DNA of 64,000 nt, taken from positions 1 to 64,000 of the forward strand of contig JALFVN010000045.1 in the NCBI GenBank assembly GCA_022787565.1, written 5' to 3'. Numbering within the stretch: the stretch's first letter is position 1; each line of letters begins with the position of its first letter. The notes below the pieces were generated by a model, which saw only the letters and a program-made list of their open reading frames with translations, did not search any database and had not been told where the DNA came from. This document shows, one piece after another, positions 5,477 through 57,793 of this stretch. The stretch comes from Clostridiales bacterium. Its GTDB lineage: Bacteria; Bacillota; Clostridia; Oscillospirales; Oscillospiraceae. The translations under genes were made by a program, and so were the position numbers.

Positions 5477-5563
5477 ACTGGCCGCCACGCAGGGCGTCCG
5501 CTGCGTATCCATTGCAGCTGGGCCATGAGGCAGGGCTTCCCGCCCGTACGCTGACCCAAAATG

Positions 5564-6326
5564 CTGTCATCCTGAGCGCCAGCGCAGGATCCCGTATGGC
5601 TGCGCACGGTGTTCTGTTCACGGGATTCTTCGTCGCTGCGCTCCTCAGAATGACAGGGGGGAATGGGGGCCTTTGGCGCGCCCGTCAAGCCTCCCCCTGA
5701 AAGGGGAGGTGCTGAGCGAAGCGAAGCGGAGGGGTTTAGCCTCCCTTGTGTAAAGGGAGGTGGTGCGGCGAAGCCGCGACGGAGGGATTGTATTCACTGC
5801 CCAGCGTGACGGGAACAGGCAATCCCCCAGTCTGCCCGATGGGCAGACAGCCCCCTTTACACAAGGGGGCCTTTAGCGCGCCCGACAGCCGCCTCTGCAG
5901 CGGCAGGGTAAGCCTGCAAACGGAGCCAAGTTCGGGCAACTCACAAATCGCCCGTATACTTCGCAAAAAATATGCTGTCATCCTGAGCGCCAGCGAAGGA
6001 TCCCGTATGGCTGCGCAAAAAATATGCTGTCATCCTGAGCGTCAGCGAAGGATCCCGTGTGGCTGTGCACCGTGTTCTGTTCACGGGATTCTTCGTCGCT
6101 GCGCTCCGCAGAATGACAGGGGGACGGGAAAGGGCCGTCGGGGACGCCGGCCCCTACAATTATGTCGGAAGTCCGGCGGTGAGCATGTAGGGGCTGGCGT
6201 CCTCGACAGCCCATGTACCGAAGCAAAAAACAGCTGTCATCCTGAGCGCCAGCGAAGGATCCCGTATGGCTGCGCACGGTGTTCTGTTCACGGGATTCTT
6301 CGTCGCTGCGCTCCGCAGAATGACAG
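5564..6326. repeat. Cluster of dispersed palindromic repeats
   Basis: The stretch from 5480 to 6394 has no convincing gene and is built from short repeats found elsewhere in the window. Long palindromic repeats of about 93 bp (type A: starts CTGTCATCCTGAG, ends GAATGACAG) are at 5564-5656, 6027-6119 and 6234-6326, with a truncated copy at 5974-6017. Type B double-hairpin repeats (CCTCCC...GGGAGG, then a second hairpin, then GGAGGG) are at 5690-5734 and 5738-5790, with an inverted partial copy near 5850-5875. A third inverted pair around GTAGGGGCTGG lies at about 6128-6212. Confidence 0.85.
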
Positions 6327-6394
6327 GGGGGGAATGGGGAGCCCTTGTGCGCGCGCCCCTGCAAGATTACCGGCATACAGGGAAGGCAGCCAAC

Positions 6395-20967: not shown

Positions 20968-21127
20968 CAAGGCGTCGACAAAGTTCGACGCCTTGAAAAC
21001 TTATTCAGGAGTATTCAAAAATACTCCTGAATAAGCATAGATTGAACGCAGAAAGGGGACTCCCGTCCCCTCTCTGCGCTCTCCCCATGCATTTCTATAC
21101 GCTGCTGATAGCTTTGTCTACAGTCTG
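20968..21127. repeat. 160-bp three-hairpin element, copy 1
   Basis: A 160-base unit that matches 43399-43558 with about 11 differences. It holds three perfect or near-perfect hairpins: AAGGCGTCGA/TCGACGCCTT, a 15-base arm pair starting TTATTCAGGAGTATT, and CAGA-AGGGGAC/GTCCCCT-TCTG. A 45-base unpaired tail ending GTCTACAGTCTG follows. It contains no open reading frame. It sits between the convergent lipoprotein and dagK genes, right after a terminator-like hairpin. Confidence 0.9.
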
Positions 21128-21143
21128 TTTGGGATTTGGCATC

Positions 21144-30038: not shown

Positions 30039-30593
30039 ATGTTTATTGACACAAAGGTATACACCGGCGGCGCAGAAGGCCGGACAGAAAAGGAAATGCG
30101 CAGCTACGCCCTGCTGGACAGTCTGGGGCTGGAATACCGGCGGGTGGACCACGAGCACGCGGACACCATCGAAGCCTGCGAGCAGGTGGAGGGGCTGCTG
30201 GGCTGCAAAATCTGCAAGAATTTATTTCTGACCAACCGGCAGCAGACGGATTTTTATCTGCTGGTCATGCCGGGGGAGAAGCCCTTCAAGACCAAGCTCT
30301 TGTCAAAGCAGATCGGCTCTGCCCGGCTGTCCTTCGCCTCGGCGGAGCATATGGAAAAGTATCTGGACATCACCCCCGGCTCGGTCAGTATCCTGGGGTT
30401 GATGAACGACAAGGGCGGCGCAGTGCGGCTGCTGGTGGACCGGGACTTGCTGAAGGAGGAGTATTTCGGCTGCCACCCCTGCATCAACACCTCCAGTCTG
30501 CGGCTGAAAACGGCGGACGTGCTGGAAAAGCTGCTGCCCGCTATGGGCCACGAGCCCACCTTTGTGGACCTGCCCTGGGTGATCGAGGAATAA
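30039..30593 (+). CDS. YbaK/ProX prolyl-tRNA editing domain protein
   Basis: A 184-residue stand-alone editing domain related to the insertion domain of prolyl-tRNA synthetase (ProX/PrdX). It deacylates mischarged Ala-tRNAPro or similar. Visible features are YRRVDHEHADT at the start, CKICKNLFLTNRQQTDFYLLVMPG with the conserved Lys, the glycine-rich TPGSVSILGLMND, and GCHPCINTSSLRL at the end, all usual for the family. AAGAGG precedes ATG 30039. It is probably cotranscribed with the CoA-transferase. Confidence 0.92.
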   Translation: MFIDTKVYTGGAEGRTEKEMRSYALLDSLGLEYRRVDHEHADTIEACEQVEGLLGCKICKNLFLTNRQQTDFYLLVMPGEKPFKTKLLSKQIGSARLSFASAEHMEKYLDITPGSVSILGLMNDKGGAVRLLVDRDLLKEEYFGCHPCINTSSLRLKTADVLEKLLPAMGHEPTFVDLPWVIEE

Positions 30594-30621
30594 AAAAACT
30601 GCCTCCCCTCTCCCCAAGAAA

Positions 30622-31171
30622 CTGTCATCCTGAGGAGTGAAACGACGAAGGATCCCGTATTCAGAGGAAAAGCCCTTCTGTTTACGGGATCCTTCGCTTC
30701 GCTCAGGATGACAGAGTGTTTTTTGTACTCCCCAAAGCCTCCCTTGTGTAAAGGGAGGTGGCACGGCGAAGCCGTGACAGAGGGATTGTCCTCCCCTGAA
30801 AGGGGAGGTGGCCCGAAGGGCCGGAGGGGTCAACCGCTCTTAAAAACCACCTGTCATCCTGAGGAGTGAAACGACGAAGGATCCCGTGTTCAGAAGAAAA
30901 GCCCTTCTGTTCACGGGATCCTTCGCTTCGCTCAGGATGACAGAGTGTTTTTTGCACTCCCCAAAGCCTCCCTTGTGTAAAGGGAGGTGGCACGGCAAAG
31001 CCGTGAGGTCGGGATTGTCCTCCCCTGAAAGGGGAGGTGCCGCGCAGCGGCGGAGGGGTCAACGAGCCTTAAATATTACCTGTCATCCTGAGGAGTGAAA
31101 TGACGAAGGATCCCGTATTCAGAAGAAAAACCCTTCTGTTTACGGGATCCTTCACTGCGCTCAGAATGACG
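30622..31171. repeat. Alternating palindromic repeat cluster (A-B-A-B-A)
   Basis: The 610 bases between the editing gene and the DUF4375 gene contain no gene. Three type A copies (30622-30714, 30851-30943, 31080-31171) alternate with two type B blocks (30737-30830 and 30966-31060), giving a period of about 229 bases. Each type A copy is a long imperfect hairpin whose arms read CTGTCATCCTGAG and CTCAGGATGACAG. Each type B block has two units, CCTCCCTTGTGTAAAGGGAGG and CCTCCCCTGAAAGGGGAGG, each followed by a smaller hairpin and GGAGGG or GAGGG. Confidence 0.92.
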
Positions 31172-31204
31172 GAGCTTCGCGGGAGTCTATGTTACTTCGG
31201 TTGT

Positions 31205-31726
31205 TTAAAAATCTTTGATGTTGTCCCTGACAAATTTGGTGAGATAATCCTGCAAAGGCGTCATTTTATAGAACGCATCGTCAAATTCATCAAAAGGATA
31301 ACGCTCATATTGAGCATTAAAATCCTCAAATGATTCAATATCAAAGGAAGACAGATCAGTTACGTCGATATGGTATTTCACAATGAAATCATCGTATAAT
31401 TTTTGCTGTTCAAAGGCCCCGATCATGCCCAGGTATTCACTGACCAGAGGCGCGACAGCCCGGCTTGCGTTCACGAAAAACTGGCAAAGCCCGCCATTGT
31501 TTACCTCGACTTCCAAGTAGTTTACTGCATAAAAGATCCGTTGTCTGTCGTTCAGCGCGGCAAGCCCCTCCTGAAGATCATGACAGGCGTCCACCTTGTT
31601 CTCTGTCCGGATGGTGACGGCGTAAAACAGATCTGCGTCGGACAGACTTGACAAGTCAGCGGAGGGCATTTTCAGATACAACGTTTCTTTTTTCTGCAAT
31701 TGTTTCAGAAAATGGTTCAAATTCAT
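31205..31726 (-). CDS. DUF4375 (DMP19-like) protein
   Basis: A 173-residue soluble protein of the DUF4375/DMP19 family, recognised by NGGLCQFFVNAS in the middle and the preceding FYAVNYLEVEV. No enzymatic activity is established; family members occur next to immunity and housekeeping genes alike. It starts 12 bases downstream of the alanine racemase stop and is probably the last gene of the minus-strand operon lipoprotein-alr-DUF4375. Confidence 0.85.
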   Translation of the reverse strand: MNLNHFLKQLQKKETLYLKMPSADLSSLSDADLFYAVTIRTENKVDACHDLQEGLAALNDRQRIFYAVNYLEVEVNNGGLCQFFVNASRAVAPLVSEYLGMIGAFEQQKLYDDFIVKYHIDVTDLSSFDIESFEDFNAQYERYPFDEFDDAFYKMTPLQDYLTKFVRDNIKDF

Positions 31727-31738
31727 GGTTGTATCCTC

Positions 31739-32866
31739 TCATTCATACACTCTGGGCACCCGCTTGGACACGGCGCAGAGCAGCTCGTAAGGGATGGTAT
31801 GGGCCGCGTCGGACAGCTTATAGATGCTGTTCACCGGGCCGAAAAGCTCCACCTCGCTGCCCACGTCCACCTGGGGCAGCTCGGTCAGATCCACCATGCA
31901 CATGTCCATGCAGATGCTGCCCCTCTGGGGGGCAAAGCCGCCCTTGGCGGCAAAGCTGCACTTGTTGGAGATGAGTCTTGGCAGCCCGTCGGCATAGCCC
32001 ACGGCCAGCACGCCCATGCGGGTGCGCCGCTGGGTGGTGAAGCGCCGCCCATAGCTGACGCTGGTGCCCGGCTCGTAAAATTTTATGGTGCTGACGGTGG
32101 TCACCAGACGCATACAGGGGAGAAGTCCCAGCTTGCCCGTGCTGTCCCCATAGCCGTAGAGCAGCAGGCCGGGGCGCACCATGTCCAGCGCCATCTCCGG
32201 GTAGCTGACGGTGGCGCCGCTGTTGGCGCAGTGGCGGATGAGAAATTCCACGCCGCCCCGGCTCTTCACCGCGGCGATCACGTCCATAAACAGCTTGAAC
32301 TGAGCGCGGGTATAGACCTCACTGTCCTCGCCCGGCTCGTCTGACACGGCGAAATGGGTATACACCCCCTCCGGGATCAGCCCCGGCAGGCGGCAGGAGC
32401 GGATCACATTGTCCACGCCCTCCTCAAAATAGCCCCCGGCGCAGAGGAAGCCCAGACGGGACATGCCGGTGTCCAGCTTGATGTGGATCTTCAGCTCCTT
32501 ACCCAGCCTGACCGCTTCCGTCGAGTATTCCAGGGCCTTGGCCAGACAGGTGACGGTCTGGGTGATGTTCTCCTCAATCAGCGTGCCGGTGTACGCATAA
32601 GGCGTGTGGCCCAGAATGAGGATGGGCATGGTGATGCCGCCCCGGCGCAGCTCCAGCGCCTCGTCCAGACAGGAGACGGCCAGATAGTCTGCCCCGGCCT
32701 CCTGTAAAAGCCGGGAGACCGGCAGGGCGCCGTGGCCGTAGGCATCGGCCTTCACCACGCCCAAAAACCGGCAGCCGGCCGGCAGGCTCTTTCTGATGGC
32801 TTCGTAGTTGTGGCGGAGGTTTTCCAGGGAAATCTCCGCCCAGGTTCTCTTTTGCAGGTCGTTCAT
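31739..32866 (-). CDS. alr: Alanine racemase
   Basis: A 375-residue PLP enzyme that converts L- to D-alanine for peptidoglycan stem peptides. The PLP lysine is in VVKADAYGHGA (about residue 39). The second catalytic base, Tyr, is in the YGRRF block, and the C-terminal beta domain has SICMDMCMVDLT. The length is typical. RBS AGGAAGAG is near the start. The upstream lipoprotein gene ends nine bases before the ATG. Confidence 0.97.
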   Translation of the reverse strand: MNDLQKRTWAEISLENLRHNYEAIRKSLPAGCRFLGVVKADAYGHGALPVSRLLQEAGADYLAVSCLDEALELRRGGITMPILILGHTPYAYTGTLIEENITQTVTCLAKALEYSTEAVRLGKELKIHIKLDTGMSRLGFLCAGGYFEEGVDNVIRSCRLPGLIPEGVYTHFAVSDEPGEDSEVYTRAQFKLFMDVIAAVKSRGGVEFLIRHCANSGATVSYPEMALDMVRPGLLLYGYGDSTGKLGLLPCMRLVTTVSTIKFYEPGTSVSYGRRFTTQRRTRMGVLAVGYADGLPRLISNKCSFAAKGGFAPQRGSICMDMCMVDLTELPQVDVGSEVELFGPVNSIYKLSDAAHTIPYELLCAVSKRVPRVYE

Positions 32867-43373: not shown

Positions 43374-43398
43374 CCCGCGGGAAATCCTTCCCGCGGGT
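43374..43398 (+). terminator. Terminator hairpin, left copy of a 25-bp duplication
   Basis: CCCGCGGGA and its complement TCCCGCGGG form the stem around AATCCT. The 25 bases are repeated exactly at 43560-43584, and only the right copy keeps the T run. The left copy is followed at once by the 160-bp element. Confidence 0.85.
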
Positions 43399-43558
43399 CA
43401 AGGCGTCGATAAAGTTCGACGCCTTGAAAACTTATTCAGGAGTATTCACAAATACTCCTGAATAAGCATGGATTGAACGCAGAAAGGGGACTCCCGTCCC
43501 CTCTCTGCACTCTCCCCATGCATTTGGATACACTGCCGATCGCGTTGTCTACTGTCTG
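43399..43558. repeat. 160-bp three-hairpin element, copy 2
   Basis: The second copy of the unit at 20968-21127, with about 11 differences. Changes lie mostly in loops and in the 3' tail, while the hairpin arms are kept. It is flanked on both sides by the same 25-bp terminator hairpin (43374-43398 and 43560-43584), as expected for an insertion with target duplication. No reading frame is present. Confidence 0.9.
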
Positions 43559-55796: not shown

Positions 55797-56711
55797 ATGG
55801 TTATCAAAAGAGACTTTTGCGGTGAGGAAGAATACCTCATTGATTCCGGACGGCTGCGGGTGAGCGTCATGGCTCTGGGCGCCACGGTCACGGGTATTGA
55901 ATTGGATGGGCGGTCCCTCTCCCTGGGCTACGGTACGGCCCGGGAGTATCTTGAGGGAACGGCATATATCGGCGCGCTGGTGGGCCGGTACGCAAACCGC
56001 ATCGGCGGCGCGGCCTTTGACCTGAACGGCAGACACTATACACTGACAAAAAACGAGGGGGAAAACCAGCTCCACGGCGGCCCCAAGGCTTTTGACAAGC
56101 GCCGCTGGCAGGCGGAGATCCTGGGCGAAAACAGCGTCCGCTTTACCCTTTTTTCCCCGGACGGGGACAACGGTTTTCCGGGAAACCTGAACGCCGCCGT
56201 AACTTACAGCGTATCCGGCGGCACCTTGCGCCTGGATTTCGAGGGGGAGAGCGACGCGGACACCCTCTTTGCCCCCACTACCCATATGTATTTCAATTTA
56301 AACGGCGCGGACAGCATCCTGGACACGGTGTTTCAGATGAACTGCGCTGGCTGGCTGGAAGTGGGCGAGGGACTGATCCCCACAGGAAGAATATGCCCCG
56401 CTGAGGGAGAATTTGCCTTTTCTTCTCCCCGACCTCTGAAAAGAGATTATGACCACTGCTTTGTCCTTGCCGGAGAAAACGCCTGCACAGCCCGGGCCGG
56501 GGATGTGACCATGAGCGTCAGGACGGACTATCCCGCCCTTCAGCTCTATACCGGCGGGGGGCTTGGCGCGCCCTTCGGCAAAAACCGGGGCTTCGCCGTT
56601 GAACCGGAGTTTTACCCGGACAGCCCAAACCACCCGGAGTTCCCGTCCCCCGTCCTGCGCGCGGGAGAACATTTCCACAAATATGTGGAGTACAGCTTCC
56701 TGACAATATAA
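55797..56711 (+). CDS. galM: Galactose mutarotase (aldose 1-epimerase)
   Basis: A 304-residue aldose 1-epimerase that interconverts alpha and beta sugar anomers. The pattern GRYANRIGGAAF, NQLHGGPKAFDKRRW with the first catalytic-site His, THMYFNLNG with the second, and the Glu in GFAVEPEFYPDSPNHPEF are clear. GGAGGTG precedes the ATG. It is divergent from gdhA and stands alone; no galactose genes are near. Confidence 0.93.
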   Translation: MVIKRDFCGEEEYLIDSGRLRVSVMALGATVTGIELDGRSLSLGYGTAREYLEGTAYIGALVGRYANRIGGAAFDLNGRHYTLTKNEGENQLHGGPKAFDKRRWQAEILGENSVRFTLFSPDGDNGFPGNLNAAVTYSVSGGTLRLDFEGESDADTLFAPTTHMYFNLNGADSILDTVFQMNCAGWLEVGEGLIPTGRICPAEGEFAFSSPRPLKRDYDHCFVLAGENACTARAGDVTMSVRTDYPALQLYTGGGLGAPFGKNRGFAVEPEFYPDSPNHPEFPSPVLRAGEHFHKYVEYSFLTI

Positions 56712-56781
56712 ACGCAAAAATCCGTTGCCGGAAAGAGCGGTGATCATAACACCGTTCGGTGTAGTACGTTGCGCGCGGAAC

Positions 56782-56827
56782 TTGGCTCTCCCTTTGGGAG
56801 AGCTGTCGGCGCAGCCGACTGAGAGGG
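56782..56827 (+). repeat. Left 46-bp inverted palindromic repeat of the DUF559 unit
   Basis: A type B repeat: hairpin 1 is GCTCTCCC/GGGAGAGC across TTT, hairpin 2 is GTCGGC/GCCGAC across GCA, and the end is TGAGAGGG. Its reverse complement matches 57192-57237 in all positions except the hairpin 2 bases and one loop base. The terminal GAGAGGG lies five bases before the DUF559 start codon. Confidence 0.9.
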
Positions 56828-56832
56828 AAAAC

Positions 56833-57213
56833 ATGACCATACCAAAGGACAACAGCCAACTGGAAAACGCCCGGCGGTTACGCAGGGAGATGACGCCCCA
56901 CGAACGAAAGCTCTGGTATCTTTTCCTCCGCAAATATCCGGTGAAGATTTATAAACAGCGAATCATCGGAAGATTTATCGTAGACTTTTATTGTGCTTCT
57001 GCCAAATTGGTTATTGAATTGGATGGTTCTGGGCACTATGAGCCCCAAGGGATGGCCTATGATTCTGAACGTTCCGCATTTTTGACAGCACTTGGATTGG
57101 AGGTTCTGCGTTTTTCCAACCGGGATGTCGACAGGGATTTTCGTGGTGTATGCACACAAATTGATATTACCATTCAAAAGCGCCTGCAAGGCCCTCTCAG
57201 TCACCTTCGGTGA
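56833..57213 (+). CDS. DUF559 endonuclease domain protein
   Basis: A 126-residue protein of the DUF559 family, related to the Vsr/PD-(D/E)xK nucleases that cut one strand near mismatches. It shows the opening ENARRLRREMTPHERKLWYL, YKQRIIGRFIVDFYC with the catalytic Asp, LVIELDGSGHYE with the ExD pair, and GLEVLRFSNRDV. The start at 56833 follows GAGAGGG, supplied by the left inverted repeat. The stop and the last six codons (PLSHLR) lie in the right inverted repeat. GC content is lower than in the neighbours. It is likely a repeat-associated mobile unit. Confidence 0.9.
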   Translation: MTIPKDNSQLENARRLRREMTPHERKLWYLFLRKYPVKIYKQRIIGRFIVDFYCASAKLVIELDGSGHYEPQGMAYDSERSAFLTALGLEVLRFSNRDVDRDFRGVCTQIDITIQKRLQGPLSHLR

Positions 57214-57237
57214 CAGCTCTCCCAGAGGGAGAGCCAA
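57192..57237 (-). repeat. Right 46-bp inverted palindromic repeat of the DUF559 unit
   Basis: Reverse-strand partner of 56782-56827. Hairpin 1 is nearly the same. Hairpin 2 has GTCACC/GGTGAC in place of GTCGGC/GCCGAC, so both arms changed together and pairing is kept. It encodes the end of the DUF559 protein. Confidence 0.9.
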
Positions 57238-57281
57238 GGAGGCTGTCTGCAGCTGCGCCATAGGTCACAATGGCATAAGAA

Positions 57282-57742
57282 ACGGAGCGTATCTGTACCG
57301 ATACGCTCCGTCGAGCATGTCAAAAAACTGTGCTTTTGCTGCCGACAACAGAGCCGCGGGGGAGCGCGAGGGGTAGCAAAGCGGCGCTGCGGTAGTGAAT
57401 GACATGCCGGTGGCATGTCAGAGCCTCAGCGAGACCGAGCCTCAGCGAGACCAAGACCCCTTGCTCTCCTTGACGCAATGCTGTTTGCGGGCCTGTTTCA
57501 CGACGGCCCGCAAACAGCGCGGCTGCGGAAATTGCGCATCGTCTTCATCTGCCACAGGCAGCGACGAAGCGCAATACTCGCAATCCAATAACCCGCCGCA
57601 AAAAAGCCTGATCTTTCAGGCTTTTTGGGCGAAGCAGCGTTTTGAATTCCTCAAAACGCTCGGCGGCTGAAGCGGTCAAAAAAGTCCGATCAGGACTTTT
57701 TTGACAAGCTGAACGGAGCGTATCTGTACCGATACGCTCCGT
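57282..57742. repeat. Hairpin-rich non-coding region bounded by a duplicated palindrome
   Basis: A 12+12 base palindrome with a TGTACC loop occurs identically at 57282-57311 and 57713-57742. Between them lie a CATGCC/GGCATG hairpin (57402-57418), a 16-bp tandem duplication (57421-57436 and 57437-57452), a 13-bp arm hairpin (57481-57517) and two terminator-like hairpins at 57600-57626 and 57675-57705. No gene is seen in 57238-57793. The last two hairpins may end nadE or DUF559 transcripts. Confidence 0.7.
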
Positions 57743-57793
57743 CAACTGTTTTACGGGTACCCGCCTAAAAGCAGCGGATTTTGTGATTGATAT

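Follow-up and report, generated by a model that had tools for sequence, protein, structure and literature searches.

How a small nuclease gene comes to lie between two inverted copies of an elaborate palindromic repeat is the question raised by positions 56781-57238 of the window, which is the whole 64,000-nucleotide stretch of an Oscillospiraceae contig analysed here. This segment is probably a small mobile unit, composed of one DUF559 gene and two terminal repeats that its nuclease recognises. Such a reading also makes a broader question testable, namely whether a three-stranded DNA fold is read by a DNA-cutting enzyme.

At the level of sequence, the architecture of the locus is plain. The two arms of the inverted repeat (56781-56827 and 57192-57238) are 47 nt long, 87% complementary and 364 nt apart. 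As single-stranded DNA, both fold into two adjacent hairpins (z of -4.9 and -3.5), and none of 200 shuffles was equally stable. The initial annotation had described a gene exactly enclosed by inverted double-hairpin repeats of 46 bp; the inverted double hairpins stand, while the repeats measure 47 nt and the right one shares 22 nt with the gene. The components are as follows.

56781..56829, plus strand: left end unit, with hairpin 1 at 56785-56803 (GCTCTCCC-TTT-GGGAGAGC), hairpin 2 at 56805-56819 and a mirror tail at 56820-56827 (TGAGAGGG)
56833..57213, plus strand: DUF559 (Vsr-like, PD-(D/E)XK type) nuclease gene, 126 aa
57190..57238, minus strand: right end unit, with hairpin 1 stem and tail as on the left and hairpin 2 GTCACC-GAA-GGTGAC; overlaps the gene end

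The gene starts with ATG at 56833 and stops at 57211-57213, its final codons (..LSHLR) being encoded by the right repeat. The left tail, GAGAGGG, lies 5 nt upstream of this ATG, where a ribosome-binding site would be expected. Hairpin 2 reads GTCGGC/GCCGAC at the left end and GTCACC/GGTGAC at the right; two of its pairs differ between the ends, and each change is matched in the opposite arm, which keeps the stem paired. The DUF559 unit is adjoined, within the same inserted segment, by a perfect 32-nt direct repeat (57281-57312 and 57712-57743, spaced 431 nt), a near-perfect palindrome (AACGGAGCGTATCTGTACCGATACGCTCCGTC) unrelated to the DUF559 ends.

Similar repeats without a gene had also been described as scattered in the window, and the hairpin scan agrees. 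It gave nine matches, one of which is a second reading of the 5820-5870 unit, compared with none in a triplet-shuffled window and one in the reversed window. The copies comprise an inverted pair (5740-5870) and four direct copies within 30738-31061, three of which are recovered by the triplex-motif scan.

5740..5788, plus strand: gene-less unit, left half of an inverted pair (hairpin and triplex-motif scans)
5820..5870, minus strand: gene-less unit, right half of the pair with 5740..5788 (hairpin and triplex-motif scans)
30738..30832, plus strand: two gene-less units in direct order (hairpin and triplex-motif scans)
30967..31061, plus strand: two gene-less units in direct order, the first in the hairpin scan only

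The window holds other variable stretches as well. A repeat-dense island of 1.1 kb (30592-31739) lies between two genes where the congener G195 has 46 bp, and 5485-6354 is another stretch without alignment. A dispersed element of about 155-160 bp occurs at 20968-21126 and 43398-43552; it is found elsewhere in the congener G177 (L200) and is missing in G195 at about 20968-21132.

Enclosure by such repeats is a recurrent property of DUF559 genes in this clade. Four DUF559 genes were found in the genome of the window, and all four lie between inverted double hairpins, of four different sequences. In a family sample, matched inverted flanks (score of at least 30, a threshold fixed after the first flanks had been seen, with controls run at the same settings) occurred at 26 of 40 loci, compared with one of 108 shifted control pairs; this sample lists 47 places, and seven weak or partial ones were omitted. 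A separate Clostridia sample was obtained by scanning named genomes with protein alignment alone and was limited to the best 80 of 576 relatives, which gives close relatives more weight. It had matched flanks at 51 of the 75 loci scored, the others having too-short flanks, compared with one of 246 control pairs. The suggestion that DUF559 genes in relatives would be regularly flanked is supported for this clade.

What the initial annotation did not mention is the mirror tail, and it is this feature that links the repeats to known intrastrand-triplex motifs. In 60 two-ended units, the first arm of hairpin 1 is rich in pyrimidines and the second, its complement, in purines; the tail comes after hairpin 2. 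The tail is the purine arm reversed: GGGAGAGC goes with TGAGAGGG, AAGGGAGC with TGAGGGATT, and AGGAGAGG with GGAGAGGT. This relation was quantified in 49 elements from 125 loci, detected by their hairpins alone with the tail unused and comprising 41 distinct combinations (22 arms). The mirror match was 5.41 of 7, compared with 4.62 ± 0.11 after permutation, and none of 3000 permutations was as good. The alternative that the tail repeats the purine arm directly, as a second Watson-Crick partner for the pyrimidine arm, gave 4.71 against 4.49 permuted, with 66 of 3000 permutations as good, and was rejected.

The tail follows a simple base rule (G to G, A to A or T, C to T), which is that of a purine-motif triple helix. 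The C to T triplet is also part of the purine-motif code. Both window units match the class II order over eight positions, with G.G, A.A and one C.T, and near 119 loci (the 40 and 80 clostridial loci less L111) 128 perfect motifs were counted, compared with four carrying a wrong third-strand code. Judged by base order, the layout of the units is that of the class II intrastrand-triplex motifs BoxC and PIT. Such motifs, for which E. coli BoxC is the studied case, are described in passages of PMC4666352 as running from pyrimidine arm to purine arm to third strand, with G.G and A.A or A.T triplets; the G and A triplets of the purine motif are given there too.

A scan for motifs of this type found one within 350 nt of 122 of 138 DUF559 loci and none in shuffled flanks, its settings having been set after an earlier motif scan of plasmid loci and its controls run identically; the 138 hold one duplicate, as L038 and L111 are the same locus, shared by the two clostridial samples. 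At these settings 16 loci had no motif, and only 51 had one on both sides. By set, the positive loci were 20 of 23 on non-clostridial plasmids, 66 of 76 in named Clostridia and 36 of 39 in the family (7, 22 and 22 of them two-sided); the scan kept 76 of the 80 Clostridia loci and 39 of the 40 family loci, the rest having too-short flanks. In the family, 14 of 40 loci were negative for matched inverted flanks, and the motif scan, accepting either side, leaves three of 39 without a motif. In the two clostridial sets, to which the density comparison applies, motifs reached 2.3 and 3.6 per kb near the genes and 0.07 per kb beyond 700 nt.

Homologues without repeats, and repeats without a DUF559 gene, had been named initially as observations that would speak against a mobile unit, and both exist to a degree. 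Most members of this clade carry repeats; most other DUF559 genes do not, with a triplex motif at one of 24 phylum-wide and three of 36 viral loci and inverted flanks at score in one of 24 and, among distant viral loci, five of 33. These figures refer to 24 of 28 phylum loci and, of 65 viral loci, to 33 for inverted flanks or 36 for the motif; the 36 include five close relatives, and a motif is present in one of these. Two loci with inverted flanks, L239 and L243, fall outside the motif scan of other DUF559 loci, and two phage records, which scored 62 and 34, are counted in none of the totals. One repeat family, identified by pattern, is present in 14 of 67 family genomes without a detected DUF559 gene; where DUF559 is present the figure is 21 of 33 (P 4e-5, uncorrected for kinship).

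The protein itself belongs with the Vsr-like nucleases. PF04480 is the sole Pfam family in the window protein (E 1.2e-29), and residues E24, D51, E62, D64 and H68, which we take to be catalytic, are invariant in 21 aligned DUF559 sequences. Two solved structures were matched in a profile search at E < 0.01, namely 3hrl and, weakly (E 8e-4), the mobile-intron protein 3r3p, presumably the Vsr-like homing nuclease I-Bth0305I.

Repeat and nuclease are also matched to each other. The two ends of a unit have the same tail type in 51 of 60 units, seven of which are 'other' at both ends (44 of 53 without those), compared with a mean of 9.4 and a maximum of 21 in 2000 shuffles. On the nuclease tree, tail type changes nine times among 52 labelled units, compared with a mean of 28.7 and a minimum of 23 in 500 shuffles; in this count mixed units took the type of the 3' end, GGGGGATT was merged with GAGGGATT and seven 'other' rows were dropped, and with unmerged labels 16 changes are needed. 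The tree is a quick one, in which few branches (6 of 56 starred) are strongly supported. Residue 40 is the most informative on tail type: S occurs with GAGGGATT in 14 of 20 cases, Q with GAGGGAGAG in 6 of 6, N with GATGAGG in 7 of 11 and Y with GAGAGGG in 7 of 8. Because related proteins share both residue and tail, this is co-segregation and no proof of contact; nevertheless, a residue that tracks repeat type offers a handle for a recognition code.

In related genomes, some of the sites are without the unit. The window site lies between what are presumably aldose-epimerase-like and NAD-synthetase-like genes, and two congeners, G177 and G195, carry no unit there. In the window, a terminator-like hairpin behind the upstream gene is split.

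56711..56728, plus strand: left half of the terminator-like hairpin, intact in G177 and G195
57771..57790, plus strand: right half of the split terminator-like hairpin, from comparison with G177 and G195

The loop of this hairpin holds an inserted segment (56730-57762, about 1,030 bp) that contains the DUF559 unit and another palindrome pair. In addition, the L001 unit is absent from the same junction in G177 and the L002 unit is absent in G195, so that three of the four units of this genome have empty sites in congeners, as the initial annotation had proposed to look for. The differences exceed the unit itself: the window site differs by about 1,030 bp, and at L001 the sequence is unrelated. 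The relatives are about 90% identical, and between genes there is no base-by-base alignment, so that the insertion point is not fixed exactly. Inspection by eye showed no target-site duplication in the listed unit flanks or in the G060 and G064 copies.

The outer edges and the gene-less copies provide further signs of mobility. In 65 of 99 unit pairs, homology ends no more than 10 nt from the left edge, in 76 no more than 10 nt from the right edge, and in 50 this is true of both; it does not stop at the edge in 34 on the left and 23 on the right. In G060, whose DUF559 match carries a stop codon, dispersed copies of one gene-less pair layout were present in 10 of 10 fetched regions. In G064, where no DUF559 gene was detected and one repeat pattern has 26 matches, another gene-less pair of 131 nt, nested in a different repeat, was found in 6 of 10 fetched regions. 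The surrounding repeat in G064 (L326-L334) has inverted ends TTTAGCG...CGCTAAA, and several contigs end at its copies. Units at L003, L017, L071 and L072, three of them in genomes other than that of the window, share about 30-70 bp or more past their edges; because homology runs past the edges, these units may travel inside a larger composite element. Right-side homology past the edge is also seen in L092, L099, L101, L103, L104 and L105. DUF559-related inserts at L019, L028 and L110, in three genomes, apparently share one gene junction, which may be a hot spot for insertion.

Part of this evidence would also suit a free-standing homing nuclease. On that account, the DUF559 protein cuts at or beside existing repeats and its gene spreads by break repair, the repeats being targets and not ends. 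The profile match to 3r3p, the homology that runs past the edges in the L003 and L092 groups of loci and the location of units among other repeats all point this way. An account of this kind is nonetheless unlikely, since the tail types of the repeats agree within a unit, homology often ends at their outer edges, and G060 has dispersed gene-less pairs of a single layout.

For the mobile unit, the following course of events can be proposed. Each end consists of hairpin 1 with its pyrimidine and purine arms, a variable hairpin 2 that would act as a spacer, and a purine tail in which the purine arm is mirrored. Once the DNA is single-stranded, this tail would be able to fold onto hairpin 1 as a third, antiparallel strand, giving a class II intrastrand triplex that may also arise in the cell. 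The Vsr-like nuclease would most likely bind the folded ends once they are single-stranded and nick at or near them, whereupon the unit may be excised or copied to a new intergenic place; in the window, that place would be the loop of a terminator-like hairpin. Units and pairs that lack a gene would then be non-autonomous derivatives or remnants, moved in trans. The recurrent pairing of nuclease and repeats suggests that the nuclease moves the repeats around genomes.

The pairing extends beyond Clostridia. Inverted flanks (score of at least 36) occur at 13 of 22 plasmid DUF559 loci, compared with 27 of 462 swapped pairs. The underlying 23 plasmid records were chosen by hand from 55 listed, some being of the same species, and one Azospirillum was omitted from this count. 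The positive loci are from Deinococcus (4), Sphingomonas (3), Sphingobium, Novosphingobium, Azospirillum lipoferum, Sinorhizobium meliloti, Qipengyuania and Pseudanabaena, and most have the same kind of mirror tail, in which T often replaces A (GGGGAGAGGG followed by GGGTGAGGGG). The remaining nine, including E. coli, Photobacterium, Shinella and both Synechocystis loci, fall below the score, and motifs lie near several of them. Tails point outward in Deinococcus and in L026 and inward in the window. Some plasmid units lie within conserved gene runs, such as sufB/sufC, the transhydrogenase subunits and paaD/paaZ. In two Deinococcus hpa clusters the DUF559 gene sits at different junctions, and at the point where two D. 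proteolyticus genes overlap by 4 nt, strain NW-56 has a unit. On the Pseudanabaena plasmid (L349), DUF559 is flanked by a long inverted repeat of CCCCCAATT...GGGGG blocks that the triplex scan missed, and at plasmid locus L369 a BREX methyltransferase gene adjoins DUF559.

E. coli has the DUF559 gene ycjD. The ycjD-region query was found in 3365 of 5426 genomes, and a 33-mer that we take to be BoxC-like in 3788 of 5426; no triplex motif lies within about 2.5 kb of ycjD in the one genome examined. This distribution agrees with a free-standing, RAYT-like state, a fit that falls short of proof.

It is also conceivable that the nuclease is a passenger, with another, unseen enzyme or replication slippage moving the repeats and DUF559 genes merely caught between two copies. 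Repeats in family genomes without a detected DUF559 gene would be expected on this basis, yet the idea is quite improbable: the ends co-segregate with nuclease clade, DUF559 ends of this layout recur in Clostridia, Deinococcus and Alphaproteobacteria, and the aligned sequences show no variation at the acidic and histidine residues of the domain. The repeats could, finally, be ordinary terminators of transcription or RNA elements next to a Vsr-type repair gene, as the hairpins, their intergenic position and the insertion into a terminator-like hairpin might suggest. This can be set aside as highly improbable, since two hairpins with a mirror tail make no terminator, a plain hairpin would give the mirror relation no obvious sense, matched ends are almost missing from control flanks (1/246), and a passage of PMC4666352 says that purine-motif triple helices do not form in RNA.

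Seen more widely, DUF559 nucleases may mobilise intrastrand-triplex repeats across bacteria, E. coli BoxC included, with the DNA triple helix serving as a recognised end of a mobile element; this generalisation is put forward tentatively. If it is true, DUF559, named only as a domain of unknown function, gains a role, and abundant, so far unexplained intrastrand-triplex repeats gain a mobilising enzyme. The family would then have forms bound to terminal repeats and free-standing, trans-acting forms like ycjD, as is the case with insertion sequences and RAYTs. Among the matches listed in the full-text literature, with most subscription papers and bioRxiv outside coverage, no paper ties DUF559 to such repeats, and the link appears to be new.

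The unit can be placed among known systems by its likenesses and differences. By profile, the protein forms one sequence family with the Vsr and Vsr-like (EDxHD) nucleases 3hrl, 3r3p and Caulobacter VsrA, which is described in part of PMC12907096 as DUF559-containing and Vsr-like; unlike the genes of those nucleases, the present one is bounded by triplex-type repeats. With IS200/IS605 elements it shares hairpin ends that are likely read as single-stranded DNA, but its sole gene matches no HUH transposase family and its ends are inverted copies of each other.

The class II motifs (BoxC, PIT, TM-ECO) share with the present repeats the order of arm, arm and third strand, the triplets and the intergenic position. 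Passages of PMC4666352 describe the E. coli motif as intergenic and as occurring singly or in inverted pairs of type A and type B; it forms a triplex in vitro, in vivo footprinting does not support a stable triplex in the cell, and around it the authors, in these passages, report no mobility functions. In contrast to class II motifs, the units of Clostridia and some of those of Alphaproteobacteria have a second hairpin between purine arm and tail, and, in contrast to the E. coli motif, a DUF559 nuclease gene lies between the motifs.

The closest functional parallel is the REP/RAYT system, and the initial proposal of a REPIN/RAYT-like unit appears to hold as an analogy of function, with a nuclease that presumably nicks and is flanked by cognate repeats; it does not extend to membership. 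The Pfam search of the window protein, which gave PF04480 alone, found no HUH transposase. The foot of a REP palindrome bears a GTAG (or CGTC) tag according to parts of PMC3733652 and PMC8266576, and at the 119 clostridial loci GTAG was found in the four bases before hairpin 1 at none of 118 ends, the last three bases being AAG in 50 and TTG in 14. Units at most 120 nt apart show no inverted, REPIN-like preference (42 tails-in, 41 heads-in, 47 direct), in loci that include prophage stretches picked by repeat pattern. An apparent excess of REPIN-like orientation was due largely to gene-bearing pairs and disappeared at this distance once overlapping detections had been removed. Dispersed pairs of a single layout do occur in G060 and G064. 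In the sections of PMC3116915 and PMC8266576 that describe it, the REP/RAYT system has a small nuclease gene between cognate palindromic repeats and many gene-less copies, and nuclease and repeats diversify together. The DUF559 gene is likewise flanked by cognate repeats with gene-less copies and joint diversification, as in REPtrons (TnpA-REP); it differs in encoding a Vsr/PD-(D/E)XK nuclease in place of a Y1 HUH tyrosine nuclease, in the mirror tail of its repeats and in that several distinct units can share one genome. If the wider reading is true, it would represent a second, unrelated case of the REP-plus-nuclease partnership.
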